A stretch of DNA of 64,000 bases from Microbacterium murale (lineage in GTDB: Bacteria; Actinomycetota; Actinomycetes; Actinomycetales; Microbacteriaceae). The translations under genes were made by a program, and so were the position numbers. The notes beneath the pieces were generated by a model. The model ran no database searches, was not told the origin of the DNA, and was given only the letters and a program-made list of their open reading frames with translations. This document shows positions 7,036 through 32,622 of the stretch, in pieces (the first letter of the stretch is position 1; each line of letters starts with the position of its first letter). The stretch spans positions 2,108,001 to 2,172,000 of the forward strand of contig NZ_JAUSXK010000001.1 of NCBI RefSeq assembly GCF_030815955.1, written 5' to 3'.

Positions 7036-7074
7036 GAGACTCGATACAACTCCGGTGCGGGCGCCGCGGCCATG

Positions 7075-7096
7075 ATCCTCACGCTTTCCCTACGGC
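7075..7096 (-). promoter_or_regulatory. Putative KdpE-type operator of the kdp operon
   Basis: Two 11-bp units read in gene direction as GCCGTAGGGAA and AGCGTGAGGAT. The near edge is 40 bases from the operon's first start codon. The same tandem site with the same spacing precedes the KimA-type gene and ktrB. An 11-bp phased direct repeat is what OmpR/PhoB-family regulators, which include KdpE, recognise. Assignment to KdpE is inference. Confidence 0.6.
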
Positions 7097-7132
7097 TGCA
7101 GGGGCGATGCATGCGGGATGCTCACATCGGCG

Positions 7133-7723
7133 CTAGTTCGTCTGCCATTCCTCGGAGAGGAGCCCGTAGTTCATCCCGTCCATCCACTCGCCCGAGCGGT
7201 GCAGGGCTGTCTTGCGGCTGAACTCCTCGCGGCGCATGCCGATGCGCTCCATGAGTCGCCACGACGGCTCGTTGTCGGCGAAGCATCCGGCATGCACGCG
7301 GCGCAGCCCCATCGGGCCGAAGCACACGTCGATCGCGGCCTTGACGGCCTCGGTGGCGTAACCGCGCCCCGCGAACGCGGGGTCGAGCGCCCAGCCGAGC
7401 TCGGCTTCGACGGCCTTGGCGTCGTCGGCCACCTCCAGCTGCGCCCACGCGTCTTGGATGCGCACCATGAGGTCGCCGATGATCACGGGTTCGTTGTCTG
7501 AAGTCGGCAGCAGCTCGATGACGAAGGTCGCTGCGAGGCGGTCGGGATCGAGGTAGCGCTCATGGAACTCTTCGCGAGTGGCCGGCGCGACGCCGAGCCA
7601 GCGGTTGACTGCGGGGAGCCGCCTGAACTCCCAGATCGGGTCGAGGTCGTCCGGTGCGCAGCGACGGATCTCGAGCCGGGAGGTGCGGATCGGCCACGGG
7701 TCGATGCGCTGCGCGTCGGTCAT
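7133..7723 (-). CDS. GNAT family N-acetyltransferase
   Basis: A 196-residue protein of the RimJ/RimL-like GNAT group: TSRLEIRRCAPDDL near the N-terminus, the acetyl-CoA loop region GYATEAVKAAI at about residues 130-140, and FADNEPSWRLMERIGMR further on. It should transfer an acetyl group from acetyl-CoA to an amine or protein N-terminus; the substrate cannot be told. A TACTCT hexamer six bases before the ATG suggests a leaderless message. Confidence 0.85.
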   Translation of the reverse strand: MTDAQRIDPWPIRTSRLEIRRCAPDDLDPIWEFRRLPAVNRWLGVAPATREEFHERYLDPDRLAATFVIELLPTSDNEPVIIGDLMVRIQDAWAQLEVADDAKAVEAELGWALDPAFAGRGYATEAVKAAIDVCFGPMGLRRVHAGCFADNEPSWRLMERIGMRREEFSRKTALHRSGEWMDGMNYGLLSEEWQTN

Positions 7724-7754
7724 GGTTTCAGAGTAGACCGGGGCTGTGATCCGC

Positions 7755-8723
7755 TCATCGTGAGGACAGGAAGATGGCGGTGTCCTGAGCGATCTCCTTC
7801 GAGAGGGTGTGGTGGAGATAGTGCTCTCCCGCCATCGGGATGACCTGACCGAAGTCGACGCTTGCCGCCTGCTCCTCGTGGAGCGCCATCCACCCCGGCA
7901 CCTCGGCGCCGTCCGACACCACGAAGAGCAGCACCGGCAGGTTGGGTGGGAACGTCATTCCGCTGGCCGCAGCGAAATTGGCGGGGATGCGATCCATCTC
8001 GTCGATCAGCGTCGAGGCGGTGGCGTTCTTCGTTGTGAGCAGCGCCATCTGTTCCTTGACGTGCTCGTCGTAGGGGAGGCCGGCAAAAGGATCGCCTGCA
8101 ATCGCCGTGAGTATGCGCGTGATTCCGAGATTGCGGAGCGCGACAAGTGTCGAGGTCTGGACCGGGTCATCCATTCCCGGCTGATCGGGGACACTGCTGT
8201 CGATCCCCACGAAAGCAGTGAGCTCGTCGGGGTAGGCGGCCGCGTAAGTCAGTGCGTATATGCCCGCGATCGAATGGCCCATCAGCGCGTATCGGTCGAC
8301 GTCGAGTTGCTGCAGCGCTTCATGCACTTCTCGCGTGATGTTCTGGGCCGTGCGCGGTGTATCGGTCGCGTCGCTCAGTCCGGTGCCGAAGGGTTCCACT
8401 GCCACAACGCGATAGGTGTCGTCGAGCTCGTCGATCAGCGGACGGAAGTCGAGTCCTGGTGCGGCGGTGCCGAGGCCGGGGAGGAGCACGATGGTCTCGT
8501 CTCCCGCACCGCTGACCACGACGTTCATCTGTTTGCCGTCGACGGGTACGAGCTGACCGTACGACTCGATCGAGTCCTTCTCCACTGCCGTCGCGACCAC
8601 GTTGACGACGGTGGTCGTCGTGAGAAGGAGCACCGGGATCGCGACGATGACGCCGACGGTCGTGAGGGCGATTCTCCAGGGCTTGCGCATCTTGCTCTTC
8701 TCGATTCGGCGGAGCAAGGGCAT
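7755..8723 (-). CDS. Membrane-anchored alpha/beta hydrolase
   Basis: The chosen start (MPLLRRIEKSK) gives 322 residues; a start at 8768 would add 15. One N-terminal membrane helix (about residues 16-38) is followed by an alpha/beta hydrolase domain with the oxyanion region LLPGLGTAAPG, nucleophile elbow GHSIAG and a late GEHYLHH that supplies the histidine. This fits an extracytoplasmic esterase, lipase or peptidase-like enzyme tethered to the membrane. Substrate unknown. A perfect 7-bp inverted repeat lies about 60 bases upstream. Confidence 0.75.
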   Translation of the reverse strand: MPLLRRIEKSKMRKPWRIALTTVGVIVAIPVLLLTTTTVVNVVATAVEKDSIESYGQLVPVDGKQMNVVVSGAGDETIVLLPGLGTAAPGLDFRPLIDELDDTYRVVAVEPFGTGLSDATDTPRTAQNITREVHEALQQLDVDRYALMGHSIAGIYALTYAAAYPDELTAFVGIDSSVPDQPGMDDPVQTSTLVALRNLGITRILTAIAGDPFAGLPYDEHVKEQMALLTTKNATASTLIDEMDRIPANFAAASGMTFPPNLPVLLFVVSDGAEVPGWMALHEEQAASVDFGQVIPMAGEHYLHHTLSKEIAQDTAIFLSSR

Positions 8724-8781
8724 CGCTCTACGGGTGTCCGACCAGTCAAGCAATCGGTCGGCGTGCACAGAAGTGCTGCGC

Positions 8782-8801
8782 TGTCACCCATGTCGGTGAC
8801 A
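8782..8801. promoter_or_regulatory. Inverted repeat TGTCACC-N6-GGTGACA, possible operator
   Basis: A perfect 7-bp inverted repeat with a six-base centre lies upstream of the hydrolase and in the spacer before the divergent HNH gene. The size suits a dimeric repressor. No adjacent regulator gene claims it. Confidence 0.4.
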
Positions 8802-8997
8802 ACTGTCATGGCTTCGGGTCAGGGGGCGTGGGGGCGGTGCGCGTCGTGCCGGCATCGGCTCGGAGAAGTCGCTGTCCGGTGTTGAAACCTGTAGCGTGTG
8901 CGGGTTTGTGCGGCGCTTCGAAAGTTGTTGGGAAAGGTTCTCTGACCTGGGTGAAAGCGGGGTGGGAATGTCGGTGGTCCGGTGTTGAATAGTTGGT

Positions 8998-10486
8998 ATG
9001 AACAGCATCGTTGCTCGGCTTCGGGAACTCGAGGAGTCCCTCGATTCCGTGGCGTGTGATGCGTTCGGTTCGGAGCAGATTCCGGGGTTGTCTGATCAGG
9101 ATGCGGCGGAGGTTCTTGTACTGACGGGGAAGATTCAGCGGCGACTGGAAGGTATGCAGGTCGAGACGACAGTTCTCGTCAGTGACCGGTCGCAGGGGCT
9201 CAACGAAGAGCGGATGACGACTCGTTATGGGTGTGCGAAGCCTGCGGATCTGGTGCGGATGCTGGTCGGCACGGACACGCGTGGCGCGGCGCGGTTGGTG
9301 CGGGCGGCGCGGTTGGTGCGCCGCGAGGTGGGGATCACGGATGGGGCGTTCCTTCCGGCCCGGTATCAGGCGCTGCGGGAGGTGATGGTCGAGGGCGGTC
9401 TGGGGGTGGCGGGGTTGTTGGCGGCAACGGATCCGATCGAGCAGTCCGCGCGTCGGATCAGTGACGAGAACCGGGTCGAGGCGGACCGGCAGCTCGCGGA
9501 CTTCGCCCCGCGGCATGGACGCCGGTGCCGCGGTGGACGAGGGGGTGCCGCGTCCGATCCCTCTTCCGGAGGATCTGGGTGTGTTGGCGCGGGTGATGGT
9601 GGCGTATCTGGATCCGGATGGTGCCGAACCGGCGGAAGAGGCGGCGATGCGGGGCCGGTACTTCTCGATCGGGAGGGTCAAGGACGGTGCGGCACCGGTA
9701 CGGGGCAGCCTCCTGCCCGAAGTCGCCGCGCAGCTGAGCCTGCTGATCGACAGTCTGTTGAACCCGAAGGTGAATAGGGCGGACGACCCGGATCAGGATG
9801 GCGGGTCGATGGGTGCGGGTGGTGGGGTGCGGTTCGTCCCGTCCGCCCACGAGGACGCAGACGCGGGTCCCGCGGATGTGACGGATACGGGTGTCACGGA
9901 TACCCGTACGCGTGGGCAGAGGCTGCATGATGCGTTGGCGGCGATTCTGAACACGGCGGCCCGGACTGACCTGTTCCCGCACCTGGGCGGTGCGGCACCG
10001 ACGCTCACTGTCTCCGCGACCGAGGCGGACCTTTCGGCCGGTTACGGGTGGGCGCAGATCGGGCACACCGGTGATCTGGTTCCGCTCGCTGCGGCGTTGC
10101 AGACTGGGTGCGCCGGTGGCATCCAACGGATCCTGTTCGATGACCACGGTCGGATCGTGTCGATCGGCACCAGTGGTCGTATCTTCAACGCCCTGCAACG
10201 CCGCGCCATCACCGCACGGGATGGCGGGTGCGTGATCCCGGGGTGCACGATCCCCGCGACGTGGTGCGAAGTGCACCACGTGCAGGAGCACGCCGGCGGC
10301 GGCCCGACCCATACCGACAACGGGGTGCTGTTGTGCTGGTTCCATCACCGCACCCTGCACCTGACCGAGTGGGTGATCCGCATGAACCACGGCGTTCCCG
10401 AAGTCCGCGGCCCCGCCTGGTGGGACCGCCACCAGAGATGGCACCCCACCCGCAGCCCCCACCACCGACAACCCATCCCCGGATAG
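8998..10486 (+). pseudogene. DUF222/HNH endonuclease-domain protein, frameshifted
   Basis: Two overlapping frames together encode about 496 residues of the actinobacterial DUF222-HNH (13E12 repeat) family. Frame one (from 8998) carries the DUF222 start through ADRQLADFA. At the C run 9506-9509 the frame shifts, and removing one C restores FARGMDAGAAVDEG into the second frame. The second frame ends with an intact HNH nuclease motif (RDGGCVIPGC, then EVHHVQEH, then LCWFHHRTLH). The family is multicopy in these genomes and its role is unclear. The break may be a sequencing error. Confidence 0.8.
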
Positions 10487-10506
10487 GGAGAGCGAGCCGA
10501 TTGAAT

Positions 10507-10595
10507 CGGCCGAAAGGGTTGAGTCGGCCGAAGAGATAGGTCGGCGGAAAGCGTCGGATCCGGCCGAAGAGGTGAGTCGGCAGAAAGCGGCGGAG
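10507..10595. repeat. Degenerate tandem repeat, about 18-bp unit
   Basis: Five imperfect copies of a CGGCCGAA-containing unit begin near 10507, 10525, 10542, 10561 and 10578 (periods 17-19). They lie between the ends of the convergent HNH and KimA-type genes, so they may be decayed coding repeats of the HNH tail or a slippage-prone spacer. The units are too short and variable for a CRISPR. Confidence 0.5.
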
Positions 10596-10609
10596 CGGGT
10601 GAGACGCGC

Positions 10610-12700
10610 TCAGTCCTCCGTCGGCGGGCCGGCGGGCCGGTGCGCCCGGCGGCCGCTGGTGGCGGTGAGTACCGGGCGGCCGGCGCGCTCCTGCCCCGGA
10701 ATCGGCCGTGAGCGCCGCCCGTAGATCAGCTCCGACGAGTCCAGCAGCCACGGCACAAGCGTGATGGAGACGCCGTGCACGAGCATGAGCTGGTTCGCCA
10801 TGCGGCGAGCCCGCCGGTTGTGCAGGAAGCTCTCCCACCAGTGCCCCACGATGTACTGCGGCAGGTAGACCGTCACCACCGAGGAACCGTGCTTCTGTCG
10901 GTACTGCTTGATGAACTGGGCGACCGGCTGCGCGAACGAGCGGTACGGCGAATCCACGATGATCAGCGGGATGGGGATGCGATGCTCCGCCCACTCCCGC
11001 TGCAGGCGCTCCGCATCGTCCTCGGAGACCGCAATGTGCACCGCGAGCGTCTTTCCGTGTTTCGCCGCGATCGCGTAATCGATCGCCTTGATGACCGGCT
11101 TCTGCAGTTTGCTGACCAGCACCAGCGCCACATCACCGCTCGCACCGAAGTGGGTCGTGTCGTCGATCGCGATCTCGTGGTCGACATCTCGGTAGTAGCG
11201 CTTCACCCCCATCATCAGGAAGGCGAGGATCGGGATCGCGAAGAACACGAGATACGCCCCGTGCGTGAACTTCGTGATCGTCACGATGAGGAGCACGAGG
11301 ATCGTCAGAGTGGCACCGGCCGAGTTGATGATCAGCCCGACCCGAGCTGACCGGCGATCGGATGCTGCGGCACCGTCGACCGCGACGTCAGCGTCGTCTT
11401 CGCCCGACGACGTCGTCCGCAGGATCCGCCGCCAGTGCCGCACCATTCCGATCTGGCCGAGCGAGAACGAAACGAAGACGCCGATGATGTAGAGCTGGAT
11501 GAGCGTCGTGAGCTGTGCCTGGAACACCACGAGCACGGCGATCGCTGCGATGCCCAGCAGGATCATCCCGTTCGAGAAGACCAGTCGGTCGCCGCGCGTG
11601 TTCAGGGCCTTGGGAGCGTATCCGTCACGGGCGAGGACGGAACCGAGCAACGGGAAGCCGTTGAACGCCGTGTTCGCGGCCAGCAGCAGCACGCAGGCGG
11701 TGGCCGCCTGCACGATGAAGAAGAGGATGCTGCCGCCGCCGAATGTCGCCGCCGCGATCTGCGCCATCAGGCTCGGCTGCGGATTGGAGCAGTCGAAGCC
11801 GACCAGATCGCAGGGGTTCTCGGCGTAGTGCACGCCGGTGATGAGTGCGAGCGCAGTGAGACCGGCGAAGAGGCAGATGGCGATGGATCCCATGAGCACT
11901 AGCGTCGCCTGCGCATTGCGCACCTTGGGCGTGCGGAACGCGGGCACACCGTTGGAGACGGCTTCGACACCCGTCAGGGCGGAGCATCCGCTGGAGAATG
12001 CGCGAAGCACCAAGAGGATGACGGCGGCCTGGCTGAGATCCTCGGAATGCACGGCGAACTCGGCGCTCGACGCCACTGGAGCGTTCCCGAGGAACGTCTG
12101 GACGAGACCGGTGACGATCATGAAACCGACGGAGGCGATGAACACGTAGGTGGGGATCGCGAACACCGTGGATGCCTCACGGACGCCCCGCAGGTTGACG
12201 ATGATGATCAGGATGACGAAGCCGACGGCCAGCTCGACGCGCCAGGCGTTCAAGCCGGGCACAGCCGAGATGATGTTGTCGACCCCGGATGCCACGGACA
12301 CCGCGACTGTGAGCACGTAGTCGACCAGCAGCGCTGCCGCGACCACCACACCGGGAATCTCGCCGAGATTCTTCGACGCGACCTCGTAGTCGCCGCCGCC
12401 GGACGGATACGCCTTGATGAGCTGCCGATAGCTGAGCACGACGACGATCAGCAGCACGACGACTGCTGCGGCGACCAGCGGGGTGAACGAAAGGAAGGTC
12501 AGCCCGCCGATCAAGAGGATCATCACGAGTTCCTGGGGCGCATAGGCCACCGAGCTCAGTGCGTCCGATGCGAAGATCGGCAGCGCCATCCGCTTGGGCA
12601 GCAGCTGATCGTCGACCTGCTTCGAGGTGAGCGGGTCGCCGAGGAGGATGCGTTTGGCGAGCGGTGGGGCGTCCGGGAGCGCGCGGGTTTCTTCTGTCAC
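10610..12700 (-). CDS. KimA-type APC family potassium transporter (predicted)
   Basis: A 696-residue membrane protein from the GTG at 12700 (a start at 12712 would add four residues). About twelve helices contain family blocks SYRQLIKAYPSGGGDYEVA and DYVLTVAVSVASGVDN. They are followed by a roughly 200-residue cytosolic, USP-like domain (SKLQKPVIKAIDYA, IIVDSPYRSF, YLPQYIVGHWW). This layout matches Bacillus KimA, an APC-family K+ importer, but the family also includes amino-acid carriers. The potassium role is supported by an operator shared with kdp and ktrB. GTG 12700 is preferred because TAATGT ends eight bases upstream, as at the other two promoters. Confidence 0.7.
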   Translation of the reverse strand: MTEETRALPDAPPLAKRILLGDPLTSKQVDDQLLPKRMALPIFASDALSSVAYAPQELVMILLIGGLTFLSFTPLVAAAVVVLLIVVVLSYRQLIKAYPSGGGDYEVASKNLGEIPGVVVAAALLVDYVLTVAVSVASGVDNIISAVPGLNAWRVELAVGFVILIIIVNLRGVREASTVFAIPTYVFIASVGFMIVTGLVQTFLGNAPVASSAEFAVHSEDLSQAAVILLVLRAFSSGCSALTGVEAVSNGVPAFRTPKVRNAQATLVLMGSIAICLFAGLTALALITGVHYAENPCDLVGFDCSNPQPSLMAQIAAATFGGGSILFFIVQAATACVLLLAANTAFNGFPLLGSVLARDGYAPKALNTRGDRLVFSNGMILLGIAAIAVLVVFQAQLTTLIQLYIIGVFVSFSLGQIGMVRHWRRILRTTSSGEDDADVAVDGAAASDRRSARVGLIINSAGATLTILVLLIVTITKFTHGAYLVFFAIPILAFLMMGVKRYYRDVDHEIAIDDTTHFGASGDVALVLVSKLQKPVIKAIDYAIAAKHGKTLAVHIAVSEDDAERLQREWAEHRIPIPLIIVDSPYRSFAQPVAQFIKQYRQKHGSSVVTVYLPQYIVGHWWESFLHNRRARRMANQLMLVHGVSITLVPWLLDSSELIYGRRSRPIPGQERAGRPVLTATSGRRAHRPAGPPTED

Positions 12701-12728
12701 GAGGCGTGACATTACGCCGATTCGCGGC

Positions 12729-12793
12729 ATCCTCACGGGATCCTTACGAAATCCCTACGGGTGCCGGCATCCCCCATACGGAATCCTCATGCC
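12729..12793 (-). promoter_or_regulatory. Putative KdpE-type operator array of the KimA-type gene
   Basis: Three perfect 11-bp-phased units begin at 12729, 12740 and 12751. In gene direction they read CCCGTAGGGAT, TTCGTAAGGAT and CCCGTGAGGAT. The core pair (12740-12761) begins 40 bases from the GTG at 12700, as at kdp and ktrB. A degenerate pair follows at 12772-12793, one base out of phase. The tract is non-coding if the start is at 12700. Confidence 0.6.
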
Positions 12794-12857
12794 CGCGGCA
12801 TCCGCCCACAGCGAAACGCACAGCGCGTTCTGATCACGCTCACGTAACGTCGATCTC

Positions 12858-13557
12858 ATGACGACCATTCAGGTCAGCGAAGACGATATCCGCCAGACGC
12901 GCGAGCTCCGTGACGAATTCCAGAAGTTCCTGCGCGAGTACGAGTTCGGGATGCGTGAAGTCGAGACGAAGATCTCGATCCTGCGGGACGAGTTCCTGCA
13001 CGATCACCGCGTACAACCCGATCGAGCATGTGAAGAGCCGCATCAAGACGCCGGACAGCATCGTCGAGAAGATCGCCCGCAAGGGGATCGAAGAGCCCGA
13101 CTTCGAGCGCATCCGCGAGGAGATCACCGACATCGCAGGCGTCCGAGTCACCTGCAGCTTCGTCGCCGACGTGTACCAGCTGTTCGACCTGCTCACGCAG
13201 CAGGACGACATCACGGTGCGAGCCGTCAAGGACTACATCAAGAACCCCAAGCCCAACGGCTACAAGAGCCTCCACGTCATCATCGAGGTGCCGGTGTTCC
13301 TGTCGACCGGGCCGCTCCTGGTGCCCGTCGAGGTGCAGTTCCGCACGATAGCGATGGACTTCTGGGCGAGCCTCGAGCACAAGATCTACTACAAGTTCTC
13401 CAACCAGGTGCCCTCGCATCTCGTCGAGAGCCTGTCGGACGCGGCGGATGCCGCCGCGGAGCTCGACTCGCGCATGGAGCGACTGCACCGCGAGGCGCAC
13501 GGCGTGCCACAGCGTCAGCTGGATCCGCCGCCCCCGCCGCGCATCGTCGAGGTGTGA
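12858..13557 (+). pseudogene. Small alarmone synthetase (RelA/SpoT-domain GTP pyrophosphokinase), frameshifted
   Basis: Frame one gives the N-terminus (MTTIQVSEDDIRQTRELRDE through RDEFLHDH). The rest continues in another frame as AYNPIEHVKSRIKTPDSI, then IAGVRVTCSFVADVY, NGYKSLHVIIEVPVF and VEVQFRTIAMDFWASLEHKI, the RelA/SpoT synthetase core. Dropping one C at 13007-13008 joins them into about 233 residues, the usual size of a RelQ-like single-domain synthetase that makes (p)ppGpp from GTP/GDP and ATP. No hydrolase domain is present. The shift may be a sequencing error, since both halves are well conserved. Confidence 0.8.
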
Positions 13558-13581
13558 GCCGGCAGAGGCTCAGCTCGAGGG

Positions 13582-14235
13582 TCAGGGGGCGGCAGCGCAG
13601 ATCTCGCTGCGGATGAGATGACTGGTCGAAGCCCGCGTCGCCTGCTGGAACTCTTCGAGCGCGGCGTCGTCGACGCCGGAGACGCCGCCGACGAGTTCCA
13701 GCACCGGGCAGGGATCGATCTGAGCATCCACCACGACAGTCGTGACCACCTCGTACCCATCGCCGGGCACGTACTCCTGCTCTTCCTGGTACGAGCGCAA
13801 CCCGTTGATCATGCTCAGCGCCAGCGCGCGATCGATGATGCCGTCGCTTTCACCCGACCACGGCATCTCGATCGTGATGCTCGCTCCGTCTGCGGGAGCA
13901 TCGCCGGGGGTGTCGAACCCTTCGGAGAACTCGACGATCAGCCACTTCACACTGACGGTGCTGGGGACATCGAACTCCAGCGCATGCTCCAGCGCGGCGT
14001 CGAGCACGTCAACGTCGCTCCGGGAATCCAGCTCCACCGCAAGATCGCCGCTGCCTTGGAAGGGCAGGTCGTTGCTCATCGAGCCGCTCGCCTGGAGCAC
14101 CCCCGGAGTGGCCGCCATGTGCTCGACGAAGAGTTCCTCCGCCCAGGAACCCGCATCGATGTTCCCGCATCCGGCCAGCACGACAGCGACTCCCGCCGCG
14201 CCGGCGACGGCGAGGGGTGTGCGCCGTTTCCGCAC
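13582..14235 (-). CDS. Putative lipoprotein of unknown function
   Basis: 217 residues with a type II signal peptide: basic MRKRR, a hydrophobic stretch and lipobox VLAGC (Cys23). The mature part is acidic and shows no domain I recognise. Two bases separate its start from the stop of the upstream M20 gene, so the two are probably co-transcribed. Confidence 0.7.
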   Translation of the reverse strand: MRKRRTPLAVAGAAGVAVVLAGCGNIDAGSWAEELFVEHMAATPGVLQASGSMSNDLPFQGSGDLAVELDSRSDVDVLDAALEHALEFDVPSTVSVKWLIVEFSEGFDTPGDAPADGASITIEMPWSGESDGIIDRALALSMINGLRSYQEEQEYVPGDGYEVVTTVVVDAQIDPCPVLELVGGVSGVDDAALEEFQQATRASTSHLIRSEICAAAP

Positions 14236-14237
14236 GC

Positions 14238-15452
14238 TCAGCCCAGGAACTCGCGCACCGCCGTCGCCATCGCGGTGACCCCGACCTCGATGGTCGGATG
14301 GATCTCCGGCGCGAACAGCGGCGAGTGGTTGGTGGGGATGTCGTGGGCGACCGAGCCGCCTGCGACCGCCGCCGCGAACGTCGCCGGGTCGACACCGCCC
14401 CAGAACCAGAAGACCAGAGGCGCGCCGGCATCACGCGCGAACCATGAGACGTCCTCGCTGCCGGTGATCATCCCTGGGTCGATCACAGCGGCTTCGCCGA
14501 GGACGCGCTGGAACGCGGTCGTGACCCGCGCGACGGCATCCTCGTCGTTGATCGTGGGCGGCAGCGTGTGGTCGGTGCGGATCTCGGGCTCGCGCTCGGC
14601 GCCGGATGCGAGGGCCTCAGCCCGGACGATCCGCTCCACGCTCGCGAGCACGGTCGCGCGGGCCTCGTCGTTCGGGTAGCGCAGGCTGAGCTCGAGCGTC
14701 GCCTCGGCGGGGATGATGTTGTTCTTCAGGCCGGCGTGGATCGAGCCGACCGTGACGACCGCCACGTCCTGCGGGTCGGTCTCGCGAGAGGCGATCGTCT
14801 GCAGGCGCATCACGGTGGCAGCGGCCATCACCACCGGGTCGACGGTCGTGTGCGGTCTTGATCCGTGCCCGCCGCGGCCGTGCAGAGTGACGGTGAGGCC
14901 GTCGGATGCTGCCATCTGCGTGCCGCTGCGGACGCCGATGATGCCTGCGGCGAAGGGGGTCACGTGCTGGCCGAGCACGATGTCGGGCTTCGGATAGCGA
15001 TCGAGGATGCCGGCGTCCAGCATCGCCCTGGCGCCGGCGCCGTACTCCTCGGCCGGCTGGATGATGACGACGAGTGTTCCCGACCATTCCGCCCGGTCGG
15101 CGACGAGCCGCTCGACAGCGCCGATCATTGCGGTGACATGCATATCGTGTCCGCAGGCGTGCATCACAGGGACGGTGTGGCCGGCAGGGTCGACGCCGGT
15201 CGCTGTGCTGGCGTACGCCAGTCCGGTCTGCTCTTCTACGGGGAGAGCGTCCATGTCTGCGCGCGCCCAGATCGTAGGGCCATCGCCGTTGCGCAGCAGT
15301 CCGACGACGCCGGTGATGCCGACACCCTCTTCGACCTCGAGCCCGAGATCACGCAGGTGTCCGGCGGCGATGCCGGCCGTCCGGGTCTCCTGGAACGAGA
15401 GCTCGGGATGCTGATGGAGGTCGATGTACAACGCTTCGAGATCGATGCTCAT
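14238..15452 (-). CDS. M20 family metal-dependent amidohydrolase
   Basis: 404 residues, the usual size for M20D amidohydrolases (hippurate hydrolase, N-acyl amino acid hydrolases). Metal and catalytic motifs are intact: DLHQHPELSF at the start, HACGHDMHVT, QPAEEYGAGA, the lid-domain HGRGGHGSRPH and GSEDVSWF. It should cleave an N-acyl or amide bond in the cytoplasm; the substrate is not evident. TAGGCT lies six bases before the ATG, so it is likely leaderless. Confidence 0.9.
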   Translation of the reverse strand: MSIDLEALYIDLHQHPELSFQETRTAGIAAGHLRDLGLEVEEGVGITGVVGLLRNGDGPTIWARADMDALPVEEQTGLAYASTATGVDPAGHTVPVMHACGHDMHVTAMIGAVERLVADRAEWSGTLVVIIQPAEEYGAGARAMLDAGILDRYPKPDIVLGQHVTPFAAGIIGVRSGTQMAASDGLTVTLHGRGGHGSRPHTTVDPVVMAAATVMRLQTIASRETDPQDVAVVTVGSIHAGLKNNIIPAEATLELSLRYPNDEARATVLASVERIVRAEALASGAEREPEIRTDHTLPPTINDEDAVARVTTAFQRVLGEAAVIDPGMITGSEDVSWFARDAGAPLVFWFWGGVDPATFAAAVAGGSVAHDIPTNHSPLFAPEIHPTIEVGVTAMATAVREFLG

Positions 15453-15467
15453 GGCCCGAGCCTACTG

Positions 15468-17941: not shown

Positions 17942-17948
17942 GACGGCG

Positions 17949-24090: not shown

Positions 24091-24091
24091 C

Positions 24092-24173: not shown

Positions 24174-24195
24174 GACAGGAATAGGGTTGAGTCTC

Positions 24196-25692: not shown

Positions 25693-25695
25693 GCG

Positions 25696-26184
25696 TCAGT
25701 CGTCGGAGTCTTCCAGATCCTGCAGTCGCTGCGGGCCCGAGCCCTGGCTTCCGAGGGCGTCGTCGGGGTTGAGCAGGCCGCACGCCTTCATCGACAGGCA
25801 GCCGCAGCCGATGCATCCCGTCAGCTCTCGTTCCAGACGCTCGATCCCCTCGCGTCGTCGCTCCAGGTCGCGCTTCCATCGTCGTGATGCACGCTGCCAG
25901 TCCTCGTGGCTCGGCGTCTCTGTGAGGGGGACGTCGGCGAACGCCTCCTGCACGTCGGCGAGCGGGATGCCGAGTCTCTTGGAGACCGTGATCAGAGAGA
26001 CGCGCCTGAGCATGTGGCGAGGGTATCGACGCTGATTGCCTGGTGTGCGCGTCGATGCGATGAGGTTGAGCTTCTCGTAGAAGTGCAGGGCGGAGACAGC
26101 CACGCCGGTGCGCCTGCTCATCTCGCCGATGCTGAGCAGCTCATCCGGGGCGTGCGACGGTGACGTCTCGCCCGATTCGACCAT
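25696..26184 (-). CDS. soxR: Redox-sensing MerR-family activator SoxR
   Basis: 162 residues: N-terminal winged helix (LLSIGEMSRRTGVAVSALHF), dimerisation helix, and the [2Fe-2S] cluster motif CIGCGCLSMKAC near residues 119-130 (Cys-X2-Cys-X-Cys-X5-Cys). SoxR senses redox-cycling compounds and activates promoters with over-long spacers. Its site lies in the divergent spacer in front of the ferredoxin operon, so it should activate that operon. Confidence 0.95.
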   Translation of the reverse strand: MVESGETSPSHAPDELLSIGEMSRRTGVAVSALHFYEKLNLIASTRTPGNQRRYPRHMLRRVSLITVSKRLGIPLADVQEAFADVPLTETPSHEDWQRASRRWKRDLERRREGIERLERELTGCIGCGCLSMKACGLLNPDDALGSQGSGPQRLQDLEDSDD

Positions 26185-26199
26185 GCGACCCTCCTCGAT

Positions 26200-26230
26200 T
26201 TGACCTCAAGTGTACTTGAGGTTTTAGCGT
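26200..26230 (+). promoter_or_regulatory. SoxR-controlled promoter with operator
   Basis: The -35 TTGACC (26200-26205) and -10 TAGCGT (26225-26230) are 19 bp apart, the long spacer typical of MerR-family activation. The inverted repeat CCTCAAGT-GT-ACTTGAGG (26204-26221) fills the spacer and matches the known SoxR box pattern. It drives the ferredoxin operon and may also control soxR. Confidence 0.85.
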
Positions 26231-26237
26231 AGAGAGC

Positions 26238-26264
26238 ATGACCCGGAAGAACATGCCCCTATGA
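26238..26264 (+). CDS. Putative 8-codon leaderless leader peptide
   Basis: ATG at 26238 is seven bases after the -10 hexamer, about where transcription should begin. It encodes MTRKNMPL and its stop overlaps the ferredoxin start as ATGA. The ferredoxin ATG lacks a close Shine-Dalgarno, so translation may depend on termination-reinitiation from this peptide. This is a sequence-based inference. Confidence 0.4.
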
Positions 26265-26587
26265 CGTATGTGATCGCGCTGCCCTGCGTCGATGTCAAAG
26301 ATCGAGCGTGCATCGACGAATGCCCTGTCGACTGCATCTACGAGGGGGAGCGTTCGCTCTACATCCATCCGGACGAATGCGTGGATTGCGGTGCGTGCGA
26401 GCCGGTGTGCCCTGTCGAGGCGATCTACTACGAGGACGATCTGCCCGAGGAATGGGCCGACTACTACAAGGCGAATGTCGAGTTCTTCGACGACATCGGC
26501 TCCCCAGGCGGCGCCGCGAAGCTCGGGGTGATCGCGCACGATCATCCGCTGGTCGACGCCCTGCCTCCACAGGGAGGAACCGAATGA
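26261..26587 (+). CDS. fdxA: Seven-iron ferredoxin FdxA
   Basis: 108 residues with the 7Fe ferredoxin pattern: Cys9, Cys17, Cys21 and Cys25, then Cys40-X2-Cys43-X2-Cys46-X3-Cys50-Pro, enough for one 3Fe-4S and one 4Fe-4S cluster. The family is a cytoplasmic electron carrier. Its stop overlaps the reductase start (ATGA), so it is probably the partner of that enzyme. Confidence 0.95.
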
Positions 26588-28410
26588 CAACCGCACCTCG
26601 CGTGGCCATCGTCGGCGCCGGTCCAGCCGGAATCTATGCGGCAGACATCCTCCTCTCCCGCGTTCCAGATGCCCGCATCGACCTGCTGGAGAAGCTCCCC
26701 GCCCCCTACGGCCTGGTGCGATACGGAGTCGCCCCCGATCATCCACGCATCCGCAAGATCATCGATGCGCTGCACGATGTGCTGCAGCACCCATCGATCC
26801 GGCTGCGCGCGAACGTCGAGGTCGGCGTCGACATCACGCTCGATGAGCTGCGCGCTGCCTATGACGGCGTGATCCTCGCCACGGGCGCCGACCGTGACGT
26901 GGCACTCGAGCTGCCTGGTGCTGATCTGCCAGGATCCTTCGGCGCCGCGGACTTCGTCGCCTGGTACGACGCGCATCCAGACGTGCCGCGCACCTGGCCG
27001 CTCGCGGCCGAGACCGTCGCTGTGCTCGGTGCCGGCAACGTGGCGCTGGACGTCACCCGCATCCTCGCCAAACATGGGAAGGACCTCGATCGCACCGACA
27101 CCCCGGACGATGTGCTCGAGGCACTGGCGGCGAACCCGCTCCGTGACATCCATCTCTTCGTCCGCCGTGGGCCGGCAGACGTCCGATTCTCGGCGCTCGA
27201 GCTGCGTGAGCTCGGCGAGCAGCGCGACGTCGACGTCATCGTCGACCCGGCCGAACTGGAACTGGATGCGCACGGCGAGCGGATGCTGGAGCAGTTCTCG
27301 CAGCGTCGCATCATCCTGCGGACGCTGCGCGCCTGGGCCGAACGTCCGTCGTCCTCACTGACCGCGTCGCGCCGCATCCACCTGCACTTTCGCCAGCGGC
27401 CGGTACGGATCGTGGGTGCGCAGGATGTCACCGGCATCGAGATGGAGCGCACGGCATCCGACCCGCTTGGCCGCATGGTGGGTGCCGGCGACCTCGTTCG
27501 ACACGACGTCGGCGCTGTCTATCGGGCGATCGGCTACCGGTCATCGCCCGTGCCCGGCGCGCCCTTCGATGAGGATTCCGGCGTCGTACCGCACCGAGAA
27601 GGTCGCGTCGTTGACGCGGAGGGCGTGCCGATCCCGCGCCTGTACGCCACAGGATGGATCAAACGCGGACCGATCGGACTCATCGGTTCGACCAAGTCGG
27701 ATGCGGCGCAGACCGTGCAGCACCTGGTCGACGACCTCGCAGCCTCCGGTCGGATCGGCGACGAGCGCGACCCGCTCGTGCATCTCACTCACGCCGTCGA
27801 CTGGACGGGCTGGCTGAGGATCGACGCGGCCGAGCGCAGTGCCGGCGCACAGCGCGGCCGCGAGCGCACGAAGCTGGTCGACCGCGGCGAGATGACTGCG
27901 ACCGCGACACCGACGCCTTCAGCAGTGGGTGACAGATTGAAGGCCGCATTTCGTACGCATCCGGCCGGCATCGCGGTCATCACCGCCGCGACGCCGACAG
28001 GCCCCGTGGGTCTCACGGCTTCCAGCGTCGCCTCGGTCGCGGTGGACCCCGCGGCGATCATGTTCTCGGTCACGAGGGCGACGGGCAGCGCGGGCGCGCT
28101 TCTCGATGCAGACACCTTCGTCGTGCACCTCATCGACGACGACCACGCCGACCTCGCTCAGGCCTTCGCGACCAGCGGCGCCGATCGGTTCACCTCCGAG
28201 CAGGGGTGGATCACGCTCGGCTCCGGCGAACCGCACCTGCCCAGCGCAAGAGCCGCGCTGCGCTGCCGGGCGCTGCACACCATTCCGGTCGGGTCATCGA
28301 CCGTGGTGATCGCCGAGGTGCTCGACGTCGTCGCCGGCCCATCCGGCCGACCCCTCGTCTACCTCGACCGACGCTTCCACTCCCTGCCGACCCTCTCTGA
28401 AAGGAACTGA
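26584..28410 (+). CDS. Ferredoxin-NADP reductase fused to a flavin reductase-like domain
   Basis: 608 residues in one open frame. Residues 1-436 are an adrenodoxin-reductase/FprA-type enzyme: FAD motif [14 protein letters not shown] motif [14 protein letters not shown] and FAD C-terminal motif [20 protein letters not shown]. From Met437 ([16 protein letters not shown]) a complete flavin reductase-like FMN-binding domain follows ([29 protein letters not shown]). It should move electrons between NADPH, ferredoxin and flavin under redox stress. The join falls where FprA proteins normally end, at an ATGA, so one indel could have removed a stop; otherwise it is a true fusion. Confidence 0.85.
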
Positions 28411-28411
28411 C

Positions 28412-29041
28412 ATGCCCACTCCCTATACCCTCCCCGAACTGCCCTACGACTATGCGGCGCTCGAGCCGCACATCTCCGCAACGATCATGGAGCTGCATCA
28501 CTCCAAGCACCATCAGGCCTATGTCACTGGCGCGAACACCGCACTCGAGCAGCTGGCCGCCGCACGCGAGGCTGGTGACCTCGCGAACGTGAACAAGCTC
28601 GAGAAGGACCTCGCCTTCAACCTGGGCGGCCACATCAATCACTCGGTGTTCTGGCAGAACATGTCGCCCAACGGGGGCGGGGCTCCGGAGGGCGAACTCG
28701 CCGCCTCGTTGGAAGACTCCTTCGGCTCGATCGACGCCTTCCGTGCTCACTTCACGGCCACGGCGCTCGGCGTTCAGGGATCGGGATGGTCCGTTCTCGC
28801 GTGGGACAGCCTCGGTGCGCGACCGGTGATCTTCCAGCTCTTCGATCAGCAGGGCAACGCTCCGCTCGGCGTCACGCCGTTGCTGCAGCTGGACGTATGG
28901 GAGCACGCGTACTACCTCGACTACCGGAATGTCCGCGCCGATTACGTCAAGGCGTTCTGGGAGATCGTGAACTGGGCCGACGTGCAGCAGCGGTTCGAGA
29001 AGGCTCGGGCAGCGACGCAGGGGCTGATCTCGGTGCCATGA
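28412..29041 (+). CDS. sodA: Superoxide dismutase (Mn/Fe type)
   Basis: 209 residues, normal length. Metal ligands are present: the histidine in MELHHSKHHQAYV, the one in FNLGGHINHSVFW, and Asp and His in DVWEHAYYLDYRN. It converts superoxide to oxygen and hydrogen peroxide in the cytoplasm. It begins one base after the reductase fusion, preceded by AAAGGAA, so it belongs to the SoxR-controlled operon. Confidence 0.97.
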   Translation: MPTPYTLPELPYDYAALEPHISATIMELHHSKHHQAYVTGANTALEQLAAAREAGDLANVNKLEKDLAFNLGGHINHSVFWQNMSPNGGGAPEGELAASLEDSFGSIDAFRAHFTATALGVQGSGWSVLAWDSLGARPVIFQLFDQQGNAPLGVTPLLQLDVWEHAYYLDYRNVRADYVKAFWEIVNWADVQQRFEKARAATQGLISVP

Positions 29042-29060
29042 CTCAGTGACGTCGTGGCGG

Positions 29061-30380
29061 TCAGTGTTCGCCTGCGCTGTCGTGCTCGCCGACCTCGCGC
29101 TCTTCGGCCTTGCGGTAGCGCCGATTTCGCAGCCCGAGCACGACCGCCGCGAGTACGGCCGCCACGACGGACGCCGTCAGGATCGCCACCTTGCTGTGGT
29201 CGTAGTGCGGGCTGCCGGCCGCGAAGCTCAGCTCGGCCACGAGGAGCGAGACGGTGAATCCGATGCCGGCGAGGACGCCGACCCCGGCGATGTCGATCCA
29301 GCGCAGGGACGGATCAAGGTTGATGCGGCGGATCCGGGTGATGAGCCAGGTCGCAGCCGTGATGCCGAGAGGCTTGCCGACCACGAGGCCCAGGACGATC
29401 CCTATCAGCACAGGATCGGTCAACGCCGACACGAATCCCTCGGCACCACCGATCGCGACGCCGGCGGAGAAGAACGCGAACACCGGAACGGCGAACCCTG
29501 CGGACAACGGACGGAATCGGTGCTCGAAGATCTCGGCAAGCCCTGGGCCGGCATCGTGAGACCGATGCGCCTTCCTGTGCAGCACCGGGATCGTGAACCC
29601 GAGCAGCACGCCGGCGATCGTGGCGTGGATCCCCGATGCGTGCATCAGAGCCCAGGCGGTGAATCCGATGGGCAGCAGGATCAGCCACGCAGCTCCAGGG
29701 CGAACATGGAAGAACTGCCGGAAGCGCTGCGCGATCGCACCGTAGAGGGCGATGGCCACCAGCGCGAGCAGCAGCGGCACGAGCTCGATGGACTCGGTGT
29801 AGAAGATCGCGATGATCCCGATCGCGATGAGGTCGTCGACGACGGCCAATGTCAGCAGGAAGATGCGCAGCGCGCTGGGCAGATGTGATCCGATGATCGC
29901 GAGCACTGCGACGGCGAATGCGATGTCGGTCGCCGTCGGAATCGCCCAGCCGCGGGCCTCGCTCGTGGTCGTGCCCACCACGGCCACGTACAGGAGTGCG
30001 GGGACGGCGACGCCACCGATCGCTGCGACGACGGGGACGATGGCCGTGCTCGGCTTTCGGAGGTCACCCGCGACGAACTCGCGTTTGAGCTCGAGGCCGA
30101 CCAGGAAGAAGAAGATCGCGAGCAGGCCGTCCGCGGCCCACGCGCCCAACGACAGCTTGAGGTGCCACGGTTCGTAGCCGACCTCGAAGTCGCGGATCGC
30201 GAAGTACGAATCAGCCCAGGGCGAATTGGCCCAGATCAGCGCGATGGCTGCGAAGATCACCAGCAGGATGCCGCCGACCGTCTCCTTGCGCAGGATCTCG
30301 GTGACGCGGATCGACTCCGCTCGGGATGCCGAGGGAAAGATGCTGCGAACGCGGGAGAAGCGGGACGGGGAGGGCGACAT
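29061..30380 (-). CDS. nhaA: Na+/H+ antiporter NhaA
   Basis: 439 residues from the ATG at 30380, which has AAAGG upstream; a start at 30434 lacks this. Twelve-helix antiporter with the family motifs [27 protein letters not shown] and [15 protein letters not shown], whose two Asp residues bind the ion. It exports Na+ for protons and maintains pH and sodium balance. It lies directly downstream of the Ktr potassium genes, a salt-homeostasis neighbourhood. Confidence 0.95.
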
Positions 30381-30460
30381 GAGCGCCTTTCTGGTCGATG
30401 ACGGGGCCGTCGACCAGGCTTCCCGACACTCCATTGCCCATTCTAGTCGACAGGCCTGCG

Positions 30461-31156
30461 TCAGCGCAGCTGGGCGAAGCGCTCCACCTCGACCGTCGGG
30501 CCGACCACGAGCACGATGTCACCGTCATGCAGGACGGTGTCGGCCTGGGCATTGCGCCATGAGCCCTTCGCGTCGCGATAGGCCGCGATCGTCACGCCGT
30601 GCGCATGACGAACTGCACCTTCGGTGAGGGTGATGTCATGGAGGAACTGCGGCACGACGGTCTTGACCACCGCGTACCCCTTGTCGATCTCCAGATAGTC
30701 GGCGGCCGCGCCGCGGACGAGGTGCGCGACCCGGCGTCCCATATCCTTCTCCGGGTAGATCACCTTGTGCACACCGAGCTGCTCGAGCACGGCACCGTGC
30801 CGCTCATCGACCGCCTTCGCCCAGATGACGGGAACATCGAGTTTGAGCAGCAGGGACGCCGTGAGGATGGATGCGGTGATGTCGCTGCCGATCGCGAGAA
30901 CGACGCGGTCGAACTCGCCGATCGCGAGCTGCTCCAGCACCTCCAGCCGCGTCGAGTCGGCGCGGACCACCTGGGTCAGGACACCGTTGAGCGACTGCAC
31001 CATGTCCTCGTCCTCATCGATGCCGAGGACCTCGGTGCCGGAGTCCATCAGCTCGATGGCGAGGGACGTACCGAATCGGCCGAGGCCGATGACGGCTACG
31101 GAGTCGGCTTCGGCGATCCGTCGGGCGTCCTGCCCGAATGAGAGGAATCTGGTCAT
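30461..31156 (-). CDS. ktrA: Potassium channel regulatory subunit KtrA (TrkA family)
   Basis: 231 residues: RCK N-domain with nucleotide motif [12 protein letters not shown], acidic strand end GIDEDED, then a C-terminal TrkA-C domain ([13 protein letters not shown] at the end). The octameric ring binds nucleotides, and in many species c-di-AMP, and gates KtrB. AAAGGA precedes the ATG. It follows ktrB by 37 bases and is presumably co-transcribed. Confidence 0.93.
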
Positions 31157-31193
31157 GTGCGGTCCTTTCGATCAGACGTGCGTCGGAGAGAGA

Positions 31194-32561
31194 TCATCCG
31201 ATCGCCGGGCGTTCTTTAGGGAGCTCGTACGCCGTCGCCCGCTCCCGCAGAGCGAGCGCCGACCCGAGCGTCAGCGGGCCCAGTCGCCCGAGGAACATGA
31301 GCAGTATCAGTATGAGCTGAGCAGCTACCGGAAGGTCCGCCGTGATTCCGGTCGACATCCCCACCGTTCCGAACGCGGACACCACCTCGAACAGCACTCG
31401 ATCGAGGTCGAGATCCGTGATGGCGAGAATGGCGATCACCGCTGACATCACAGCGCCAAGGGCGACCAGCACCACCGTGATCGCCTCGCGGTGGACTGCG
31501 CGCGACAGGCGCTTGCCGAACACGTTCACGGCGGTGCCGCCGCGAAGCTCGGTGTACATGATGAAGAACAGCACGGCGAAGGTCGTGACCTTTATCCCGC
31601 CTGCGGTTCCGGCTGGTCCTCCGCCGATGAACATCAGGACGTCGGTGCCGAGCCACGTCTCGTCGTGCAGCTGAGACGTGTCGACGGAGTTGAAGCCCGC
31701 AGTGCGGGACTGGACAGCGTGGAAGAAGCCCGCCAGGATCCGGGAGCCGGGGTCGAGAGCGCCAAGGGTCTCAGGGTTGTGCCACTCGATCGCCACGACG
31801 TAGACCGTGCCGAGAACGAGCAGTCCGATCGTCGCCCACAGGACGATGCGAGTGTTCATCGTCCAGTGCAGCGGCCGACGGAACTCCTTGCGCAGCTGAC
31901 GAAGCACCGGGAACCCGAGACCACCGAGGATGATCGCGGCGCAGATCGGAAGGCAGATCCACGGATCGGAGACGAATCCCATCAAGCTGTCGGTGTACAG
32001 CGCGAAACCGGCATTGTTGAATGACGAGACCGCGTGGAACACCGCGTGCCATGCGGCGCGAACGGGCTCGTAGCCGTAGCCCATCGTGAAACGGGCGAAC
32101 AGGAGCACGGCGACGGCGGCCTCGATCACCAGGGTCGTCACCAGGATGCCGGTCGCGACGCGCTTCATGTCTCCGCCGCCGGTCGTCTTGGTCTCCGTGC
32201 CGGCGATGACGCGCGAGCGCACGGACAACTTGCGAGCCAGCGCGAGGCCGATGAGCGAGGCGAACAGCATGATCCCGAGCCCGCCGAGCTGGATGAGCAG
32301 CAGGATCACGACCTTGCCGAACGGACTCCAGTAGACCGCCGTGTCGACGACGATGAGTCCCGTGACGCATACGGCGGATGTCGAGGTGAACAGCGCGTCG
32401 ACCAGACCGGTCCATCTGCCACTCGCTGAAGAGATCGGCAGCATCAGCAGGAGGGTGCCGATCACGATCGCGGCACCGAATCCGGTGGCTATCGCCCGTG
32501 CGGGGGCGAGGTTCCGCTGCTTCGGGCGACGCGAGCGCGCGAAGGAGTCGGTTCGAACCAC
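31194..32561 (-). CDS. ktrB: Potassium channel-transporter KtrB (TrkH/KtrB family)
   Basis: 455 residues with four membrane-pore-membrane repeats; pore segments include STSAVCVTGL, SSFNNAGFALY, SRTAGFNSVD and AFGTVGMSTG, the glycine-filter pattern of Trk/Ktr channels. The GTG start is eight bases after TAGCGT and lacks a Shine-Dalgarno, so it is likely leaderless. A two-unit potassium operator sits 40 bases upstream. Works with KtrA. Confidence 0.94.
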   Translation of the reverse strand: MVRTDSFARSRRPKQRNLAPARAIATGFGAAIVIGTLLLMLPISSASGRWTGLVDALFTSTSAVCVTGLIVVDTAVYWSPFGKVVILLLIQLGGLGIMLFASLIGLALARKLSVRSRVIAGTETKTTGGGDMKRVATGILVTTLVIEAAVAVLLFARFTMGYGYEPVRAAWHAVFHAVSSFNNAGFALYTDSLMGFVSDPWICLPICAAIILGGLGFPVLRQLRKEFRRPLHWTMNTRIVLWATIGLLVLGTVYVVAIEWHNPETLGALDPGSRILAGFFHAVQSRTAGFNSVDTSQLHDETWLGTDVLMFIGGGPAGTAGGIKVTTFAVLFFIMYTELRGGTAVNVFGKRLSRAVHREAITVVLVALGAVMSAVIAILAITDLDLDRVLFEVVSAFGTVGMSTGITADLPVAAQLILILLMFLGRLGPLTLGSALALRERATAYELPKERPAIG

Positions 32562-32600
32562 AAGAGGGAACGCTACGCGAGCGCCGACGTCTATGACGGA

Positions 32601-32622
32601 ATCCTAACGGGATCCATACGCC
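32601..32622 (-). promoter_or_regulatory. Putative KdpE-type operator of ktrBA
   Basis: Two 11-bp units read in gene direction as GGCGTATGGAT and CCCGTTAGGAT. A weak third unit lies at 32590-32600. The near edge is exactly 40 bases from the ktrB GTG, matching kdp and the KimA-type gene. Confidence 0.6.

Follow-up and report, generated by a model that had tools for sequence, protein, structure and literature searches.

Textbooks present the KdpD/KdpE two-component system as the regulator of a single high-affinity potassium pump. In Bacillus, kimA and ktr genes are controlled by a c-di-AMP riboswitch and by protein binding. According to excerpts of a study of M. smegmatis (PMC5401905), KdpE activates kdp, with kdpFABC as the only target shown there, and other K+ uptake genes, including trk, go down at low K+. 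Its authors saw no likeness between their site and the KdpE sites then known, and the excerpted text describes neither a direct repeat nor a second pair. In E. coli KdpE, residues R193, R200 and T215 are reported in part of another paper to be important for DNA binding (PMC3264566). KdpD was characterised in 2024 as a tandem serine/histidine kinase whose serine-kinase domain inhibits KdpB; in the excerpted survey of Kdp-pump species, this domain is kept in almost all versions (PMC11018627). A literature search for Actinobacteria returned no paper in which KdpE acts on kimA or ktr.

The window, i.e. the whole 64,000-nt stretch of soil-bacterium DNA analysed here, carries genes for three K+ importers (Table 1). 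A first-pass annotation of this DNA had placed tandem 11-bp direct repeats before kdp, kimA and ktrB, with a further unit at kimA (12729). All of these are present at those positions, on the minus strand. With up to three mismatches, the pattern CGTNAGGATNNCGTNAGGAT matches the window six times where 0.66 matches are expected, and 0 of 100 shuffles reached six. The four best are at kdp (7075-7094), kimA (12729-12748 and 12740-12759) and ktrB (32601-32620). Across the genome of 4,111,363 bp, the 16-position pattern CGTNNGGATNNCGTNAGGAT gave 19 matches with at most two mismatches, compared to 2 for the reversed pattern used as control. Only four of its matches have no or one mismatch, and these lie exclusively at the kdp, kimA and ktrB loci. 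A chance origin of the repeats is ruled out by the window shuffles, the genome rarity and the reversed-pattern controls. On a matrix built from the genus sites, the four sites score 30.2-32.2 and the other 15 matches, all with two mismatches, 14.9 or less, ruling out a wide regulon in the host genome. The looser pattern CGTNNGGANNNCGTNAGGAT (at most one mismatch) adds two places in the genome, scoring 14.9 and 11.7, with one match for its control. Matches of the CGGTCGGATGCCGTGAGGAT type are recurrent, e.g. at window positions 54240-54259; since this one lies inside open frames, such matches were set aside. The three loci had also been called unlinked. This term is too strong, as all three sites fall within 25.6 kb and those of kdp and kimA are 5.6 kb apart.

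Table 1. Features of the kdp, kimA and ktrB loci, with positions in the window unless stated otherwise.
Feature	Position	Strand	Basis or remark
kdp operator unit U3 (CGTAGGGAAAG)	7084..7094	-	pattern scan, geometry
kdp operator unit U4 (CGTGAGGATCA)	7073..7083	-	conserved end 7075, 25 nt before -10; column conservation over 68 kdp promoters, with the G011 row off register
kdp upstream pair U1-U2 (TGTGAGCATCC CGCATGCATCG)	7105..7126	-	32 bp upstream of U3-U4
kdp -10-like hexamer TTGTAT, within conserved GTTGNATCG	7044..7049	-	
27-aa hydrophobic ORF, first of kdp operon	6952..7035	-	leaderless start predicted
kdpF, 29 aa	6866..6955	-	named from position and look of sequence
kdpA	5187..6866	-	PF03814
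kdpB	3041..5185	-	E1-E2 ATPase and HAD domains, position
kdpC	2416..3015	-	PF02669
kdpD, 846 aa	1..2416, beyond window edge (genome 2107876-2110416)	-	
kdpE	outside window, after kdpD (genome 2107208-2107879)		best PDB match E. coli KdpE
kimA operator unit U3 (CGTAGGGATTT)	12749..12759	-	
kimA operator unit U4 (CGTAAGGATCC)	12738..12748	-	conserved end 12740, 25 nt before -10
kimA extra unit U5 (CGTGAGGATGC)	12727..12737	-	conserved end 12729, 14 nt before -10
kimA upstream pair U1-U2 (CATGAGGATTC CGTATGGGGGA)	12770..12791	-	32 bp upstream of U3-U4
kimA -10-like hexamer TAATGT	12709..12714	-	
kimA, KimA-type K+ importer	10610..12700	-	PDB 6s3k (KimA), E 2.3e-115
ktrB operator pair (CGTATGGATCC CGTTAGGAT)	32601..32620	-	unit end 32601
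ktrB -10-like hexamer TAGCGT	32570..32575	-	
ktrB	31194..32561	-	PF02386; PDB 7zp9 (KtrB), E 1.4e-82
ktrA, beside ktrB	30461..31156	-	TrkA_N and TrkA_C
NhaA-type Na+/H+ antiporter	29061..30434	-	PF06965; 26 bp after ktrA

One geometry is found at all three genes: the last common unit, 25 nt, the -10-like hexamer, 8 nt and a GTG (at 7035, 12700 and 32561 for kdp, kimA and ktrB, respectively). The fixed spacing proposed earlier is thus borne out by the coordinates. At kdp, the GTG is the start of the 27-aa ORF, with kdpF starting at 6955. The start of kimA is assigned to its GTG; the longest-ORF start (12736) falls within the operator. Because the -10 hexamer ends 8 nt before the start codon, the kdp, kimA and ktrB mRNAs are predicted to be leaderless, a point that the first-pass annotation missed. 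It also missed that kdp and kimA have a second, weaker pair, placed exactly 32 bp further upstream; no such pair lies 32 bp before the ktrB operator. A pair resembling kimA U1-U2 was seen in M. murale. Within the genus, 64 of 69 kdp upstreams have a spacing of 25 nt between unit and -10, and 30 of 31 at kimA have 14, 25 or 36 nt, phases that lie one unit apart.

Riboswitch control by c-di-AMP as for Bacillus kimA/ktr, with the repeats being incidental, is practically excluded. Partially consulted sources place ydaO-type riboswitches before K+ transporter genes elsewhere. The spacing from -10 to start leaves no room for a leader, however, and the repeats are conserved and phased. At the gathering threshold, Rfam gave no match anywhere in the window, and it gave none in four loci with relatives' kdp promoters. 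In 23 kdp leaders, MAFFT with RNAalifold found no common pair. Another possibility might be that KdpE, while binding every site, acts as a repressor of kimA or ktrB or as a switch. The fifth kimA unit reaches to within 14 nt of the -10, thereby covering the -35 region. PhoB-type activators also cover this region, the 25-nt phase is common to kdp and kimA, and kdp is activated by KdpE in M. smegmatis (PMC5401905, in excerpt), so that repression or a switch is considered unlikely.

The genes kdpC, kdpD and kdpE are contiguous, and the last two of them close the kdp operon. The best PDB match of the host KdpE is KdpE (E 3.1e-61, compared to 1.7e-46 for MtrA), and R193, R200 and T215 of the E. coli protein align to R, R and T when numbered backwards from the C terminus. 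The motif had been expected to be conserved in relatives, which holds at kdp in the genus members compared. Upstreams were taken from 69 of the 70 genomes with KdpA (G064 was left out because of a contig end). A site agreeing at 11 or more of 14 positions is found in 69/69 (reversed control 5/69), and one agreeing at 12 or more in 65/69 (control 0/69). Order and class levels are represented by best-matching loci, with 26 new ones from 79 KdpA genomes and 23 of 94 KdpA, respectively. At order level, 16 of 26 reach a genus-matrix score of at least 19 (control 0/26), namely 6/6 within the family and 10/20 outside it. At class level, 0/23 reach this score. The relaxed four-unit geometry is found there in 19/23 against 0/23 controls, using a unit chosen after the genus-matrix results at this level had been seen; beyond the order, the motif is recognised only with this relaxed unit.

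For kimA, upstreams were compared in 79 of the 82 genomes with a match, excluding G030 and G092 (weak paralogues only) and G044 (contig-end start); at order and class level, 26 best-matching loci of 149 were used. The kimA site occurs in 31/68 genomes with KdpE and 0/11 without it (Fisher 0.0027). Among genomes lacking kdpFABC, the figures are 7/7 and 0/10 (p 5e-5), so that pump-less genomes with kimA have kept KdpE exactly where kimA carries the site. These are counts over genomes that share ancestry, and in 2 of the 10 (G036 and G091, the latter 68% complete) the kimA frame is broken. Strict independent pairs number only 3 in the pump-less set, all agreeing (p 0.25). The full set has 8 pairs, of which 1 has the site following KdpE and 7 show no difference in the site. 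As such pairs are too few, an event count (6 versus 7) was read by eye from a tree in which G036 is absent and the 7 include the clade of G091, G094 and G097 among site-bearing relatives. The remaining 37 of the 68 genomes with KdpE and kimA have no kimA site, making the link lineage-specific.

In the pump-less genomes with KdpE, the KdpD (here kdpD') is without the serine-kinase domain and has kept the histidine kinase. The kdpD'-kdpE pair has been seen with its own operator, and the kimA-kdpD'-kdpE arrangement also occurs in two other families. On the genus matrix, G128 and G121 have kimA sites with scores of 8.3 and -6.5, respectively, both resting on the relaxed unit. The suggestion that KdpE is not the regulator, with pump-less genomes keeping the motif, was rejected after a separate search found KdpE there. 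A different OmpR/PhoB-family regulator might still bind the units, with KdpE as a mere neighbour, given that 11-bp direct repeats suit this whole family and that, among the matches listed, OmpR-family regulators about 40% identical to KdpE occur in most genus genomes. This is highly improbable, as the kimA site tracks KdpE orthologues, 6 of the 7 pump-less genomes with KdpE have kdpD' and kdpE no more than 3 kb from kimA, the M. smegmatis KdpE site is in register, and the operator at kdp extends far beyond the genus. The repeats before kdp, kimA and ktrB are thus very probably a KdpE operator, judging from these sequence comparisons.

The picture is less uniform at ktrB, whose product has KtrB as the best five of its 13 PDB matches. 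Among 27 of 28 orthologues with a readable upstream, the site is found in 5, i.e. 5/22 with KdpE and 0/5 without (p 0.55), hence no significant association. It is missing from the close orthologues of G002 and G022 (85 and 82% identity). Together with the lack of an upstream pair, this would fit a regulon in which KdpE controls kdp and kimA, while the ktrB site is young, lineage-specific or weak and has little effect. This is a lesser but serious possibility. Against it, the two-unit match at ktrB is among the four best of the genome and has the 25-nt phase, which the ktrB of G034 shares, and G069 has a single kimA-kdpD'-kdpE-ktrB-ktrA cluster. The earlier proposal of one potassium regulon acting through KdpE is therefore supported for kdp and kimA and less so for ktrB, which appears to be its weakest link, with a presumed function for the site. 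The NhaA-type antiporter gene is possibly part of the ktrBA operon.

Taken together, it is highly likely that the repeats are a KdpE operator activating KdpFABC, KimA and KtrBA at low K+. In the proposed mechanism, phosphorylated KdpE would bind head-to-tail on 11-bp half-sites (CGTNNGGAT) at low K+ and activate the promoters of leaderless mRNAs for three importers: KdpFABC, together with its own regulator KdpDE, KimA and KtrBA. KdpE binding, activation rather than repression and K+ as the signal are what we infer from sequence. If true, one operator code links the ATP-driven Kdp pump with a KimA-type importer and a KtrAB system; adaptation of these bacteria to low K+ would then be one co-ordinated regulon, and a readable KdpE code would be on offer for Actinobacteria. 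It also seems likely that actinobacterial KdpDE is a K+-uptake switch beyond one pump, that pump loss left a stand-alone kimA-kdpD'-kdpE module where kimA has the operator, and that modules like it have arisen in further families of Actinobacteria.

Compared with described systems, the KdpE-bound CCGTAAAGAAACCATCAAGGCC of M. smegmatis (PMC5401905, in excerpt) is in register with the host kdp site at 14 of 22 positions and is read here as two 11-bp units. Using a matrix built from 101 collected sites, it fits in register better than all except 30 shuffled and 55 random 22-mers, with 100,000 of each kind scored; its genus-matrix score is only 3.7, far under the genus sites. In both species, kdpFABC is followed by kdpDE, but the site core is A-rich in M. 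smegmatis and G-rich in the host. As in the host, the E. coli kdpFABC operator consists, in the excerpted description, of a pair of direct half-sites spaced by 11 bp (6 bp + 5 bp); these are T-rich (TTTATA/TTTACA) and lie within -72 to -50 (PMC3264566), whereas the GC-rich host units, up to five in number, stop 25 nt short of the -10. The host transporters are related by sequence to Bacillus KimA (6s3k) and KtrB (7zp9). Unlike in Bacillus, the control proposed here acts through the operator of a two-component system, at promoters predicted to be leaderless. The host KdpD, with N-terminal KdpD serine-kinase, USP, DUF4118, HisKA and HATPase domains, shares these parts with the tandem-kinase KdpD, as far as the excerpts describe it (PMC11018627). 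The pump-less relatives differ from the surveyed KdpD proteins: where the pump is missing, so is the KdpB-inhibiting serine-kinase domain, and the histidine kinase stays beside KdpE and KimA. With KdpE and a serine-kinase-less KdpD kept after pump loss, evolution appears to have separated the two activities of KdpD, and these genomes would be a natural experiment on the 2024 two-kinases-in-one finding.

Upstream of kdp, kimA and ktrB, units of CGTNNGGAT recur with an 11-bp period, as the first-pass annotation had described for these three K+ importers. In a scan of the 4.11 Mb genome (single contig), the pair CGTNNGGATNNCGTNAGGAT, allowing at most one mismatch, was found at kdp, kimA and ktrB only. 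The genome lies close to M. murale, the top named KimA match standing at 96% in a listing that may omit records of the window's own genome. A looser pattern added two places, both low-scoring. On a matrix built from the genus sites, the four best matches score 30.2-32.2 vs at most 14.9 for the other 15 matches in the genome. A weaker second pair lies 32 bp upstream at kdp and kimA; at kdp, this pair coincides with columns that stay conserved when 68 kdp promoters are aligned, one row being out of register. The genes kdpD and kdpE directly follow kdpC and extend beyond the window edge, the regulator encoded after kdpD being KdpE by sequence. A further site-like sequence on the minus strand of the window, recurring as CGGTCGGATGCCGTGAGGAT or CGATCGGATGCCGTGAGGAT in several genus genomes, was rejected as an operator: in the window it lies inside open frames and probably represents conserved coding sequence, i.e. 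a false positive for motif scans.

Features of the window and of relatives' loci discussed in the text
Feature	Position	Strand	Remark
kdp operon	window	minus	
kimA-type gene	window	minus	PDB 6s3k, E 2.3e-115
ktrB-ktrA	window	minus	KtrB: PDB 7zp9, E 1.4e-82
27-aa hydrophobic ORF	6952-7035	minus	upstream of kdpF
NhaA-type antiporter gene	29061-30434	minus	26 bp past ktrA
Site-like sequence (rejected)	54240-54259	minus	
KdpE-relative loci, G032/G038	L204 4463-8285, L205 6588-10400		
KdpE-like pairs, G065, G049, G028, G012	L232:5821, L234:5136, L235:4945, L240:6646		
Single-genome pair, G009	L241:6247		before corA-like gene
Single-genome pair, G086	L236, offset 7423	reverse	before 167-aa ORF

The promoters share a common geometry, confirming the spacing reported earlier: the last common unit is followed by 25 nt, a -10-like hexamer, 8 nt and the GTG. 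A -10 at 8 nt from the start codon sets the transcription start approximately at that codon. With the hexamer ending 8 nt before the GTG, the kdp, kimA and ktrB mRNAs should be leaderless, a prediction from promoter sequence. Across the genus, 64 of 69 kdp promoters have 25 nt between the site and the -10. For kimA this spacing is 14, 25 or 36 nt in 30/31 promoters, i.e. steps of one 11-bp unit, and 26 nt in one. Three of the five ktrB promoters have 25, 25 and 26 nt, and the other two 5 or none.

Across the loci collected, the 27-aa ORF pattern LD(I/L/V)(I/V/L)Y...VE(K/R)L gave 53 matches, corresponding to 33 distinct peptides. In the predicted kdp mRNA of many Microbacterium clades, a 5'-terminal hairpin and a second hairpin precede this ORF, as seen outside the window in the kdp promoters of relatives (loci L226, L175, L207, L103 and others). 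A 5'-terminal stem of at least 5 bp occurs in 21/22 leaders vs 224/2200 shuffles, the 22 leaders being chosen by eye from 30 with a located ORF and cut behind the second hairpin. Four loci compared with Rfam gave no match, and RNAalifold returned no common pair on a MAFFT alignment of 23 leaders.

Next, 99 genus genomes were surveyed. KdpA and the KdpD serine-kinase domain PF02702 are each present in 70 genomes and together in 69, the discrepancies coming from the incomplete genome G046 and from G030, where the match is weak. KimA is matched in 82 genomes, a close KtrB (identity of at least 57%) in 28 and, among the matches listed, a KdpE orthologue (identity of at least 64%) in 75; two further genomes have a KdpE relative at 55-56%, the remaining listed matches being at about 40% or lower. 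Upstream regions were scored over 14 fixed positions, with the reversed pattern run on the same upstreams as control. The site is kept at kdp in relatives, with at least 11 positions in 69/69 genomes: 65 score at least 12 and four score 11 (control: 0/69 at 12, 5/69 at 11). The kimA scores are bimodal: 31/79 reach at least 12, 48 stay at 10 or below, and no upstream scores 11 (control: two at 12, none at 13). Five of 27 ktrB upstreams reach at least 13, the others at most 10; taken by itself, the ktrB site finds no support in the comparison of genomes.

The kimA site occurs in 31/68 genomes with KdpE vs 0/11 without (Fisher 0.0027). As 37 of these 68 genomes do not have it, the putative wider regulon is lineage-specific. 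The clearest association is seen in pump-less genomes, i.e. those without kdpFABC (29/99; kimA upstream read in 17), where the site is present in 7/7 with a KdpE orthologue and 0/10 without (p 5e-5); two of these ten, G036 and G091, have a broken kimA frame. The remaining 12 have no KimA orthologue nor, among the matches listed, a KdpE orthologue. Two of them carry the 55-56% KdpE relative. In G032 and G038, which have neither kdpFABC nor KimA, a KdpE relative (54-56%) is accompanied by a short kinase resembling KdpD; these loci also show a CGTCAGGATNNCGTCAGGAT pair and a divergent 643-aa protein, the G032 protein giving no Pfam match. Counted by eye on the KimA tree, six separate pump losses kept KdpE and seven lost it, with the site in 6/6 vs 0/7 events (p ~6e-4, own arithmetic). 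Strictly independent pairs from the pump-less set agree in 3/3 cases, too few to decide (p 0.25); in the full set, the site moved with KdpE in 1/8 pairs and 7/8 showed no difference.

Gene order also links kimA to the regulator. In pump-less G098 and G057, kimA is directly followed by kdpD' (a truncated kdpD without the serine-kinase domain) and kdpE. In G068, G010, G095 and G017, kdpD'-kdpE lies 1.9-2.6 kb past kimA in the same direction, and in G014 about 18 kb away; a separate operator precedes kdpD' in G014, G068, G095 and G017. Genome G069 carries kimA-kdpD'-kdpE-ktrB-ktrA in one direction besides a kdp operon. The remnant starts around residue 370 (236 in G095 and G017) and comprises DUF4118, HisKA and HATPase, with PF02702 absent (Pfam scan of G014, G098, G095 and G069); a domain search found PF02702 in 0/7 pump-less KdpE-keeping genomes. 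The USP domain is retained in G095 and, judged by coverage, G017. According to PMC11018627, whose KdpD survey covers species carrying the pump, PF02702 is a serine kinase inhibiting KdpB. Among 80 named loci read, 34 have a kimA site of at least 12 (control 1). Truncated KdpD and KdpE lie within 6 kb of kimA in six of the named loci (M. murale, M. allomyrinae, M. sorbitolivorans, Microbacterium sp. Bi121, CH12i and cf046), all six with the site; a seventh, L331, has full-length KdpD instead. For M. murale, the reading covers 14 kb around kimA.

As judged from sequence, the repeats are very probably a real KdpE operator, most likely delimiting a three-importer K+ regulon. Membership of this putative regulon is firm for kdp, strong for kimA and plausible for ktrB. 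The NhaA-type gene may be co-transcribed with ktrA, which, if true, would couple Na+ export to K+ uptake; in G014, an NhaA-like gene (similarity by eye) is on the opposite strand. In G065, G049, G028 and G012, a KdpE-like pair is followed by 25 nt, a -10-like TAGNGT, 7 nt and an ATG that opens an apparent ABC transporter ATPase gene, possibly a further KdpE target; a partly palindromic TTCACAAATTTGTGAA-like stretch adjoins the pair. Single-genome pairs were seen in G009, before a gene called corA-like on the appearance of its sequence, and in G086, before the 167-aa ORF situated about 1 kb beyond kdpE.

Outside the genus, a two-unit kdp site (matrix at least 19) was found in 16/26 order-level upstreams read (control 0/26), being 6/6 inside the family and 10/20 outside. 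At class level, 0/23 loci reach 19 (best 13.5). A relaxed four-unit scan (CGTNARGA at offsets 0, 11, 32 and 43), relaxed after this class-level result was known, gave at least 20 of 28 in 19/23 class-level loci vs 0/23 controls and in 17/26 vs 2/26 at order level. Among 26 order-level kimA loci read, G128 and G121 reach 24-25 on the relaxed unit (controls all below 20) and 8.3 and -6.5 on the genus matrix; in both, kdpD' and kdpE follow kimA. In G113, kimA and kdpD'-kdpE are divergent, with a two-unit site oriented toward kdpD'. The set of genomes matched by KdpA does not include G128 (88% complete), G121 or G113.

Searches of the open-licence literature gave neither an account of kimA or ktr being controlled by KdpE in Actinobacteria nor a description of a kimA-kdpD'-kdpE module. 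In M. smegmatis, no co-induction of other K+ genes was observed. The 22-mer bound by M. smegmatis KdpE, as given in PMC5401905, matches the kdp site here at 14/22 positions in register; it is beaten by only 30/100,000 shuffles, with a score of 3.7, far under the genus sites. According to PMC3264566, the half-sites of E. coli KdpE are likewise 11 bp apart, with a different sequence.
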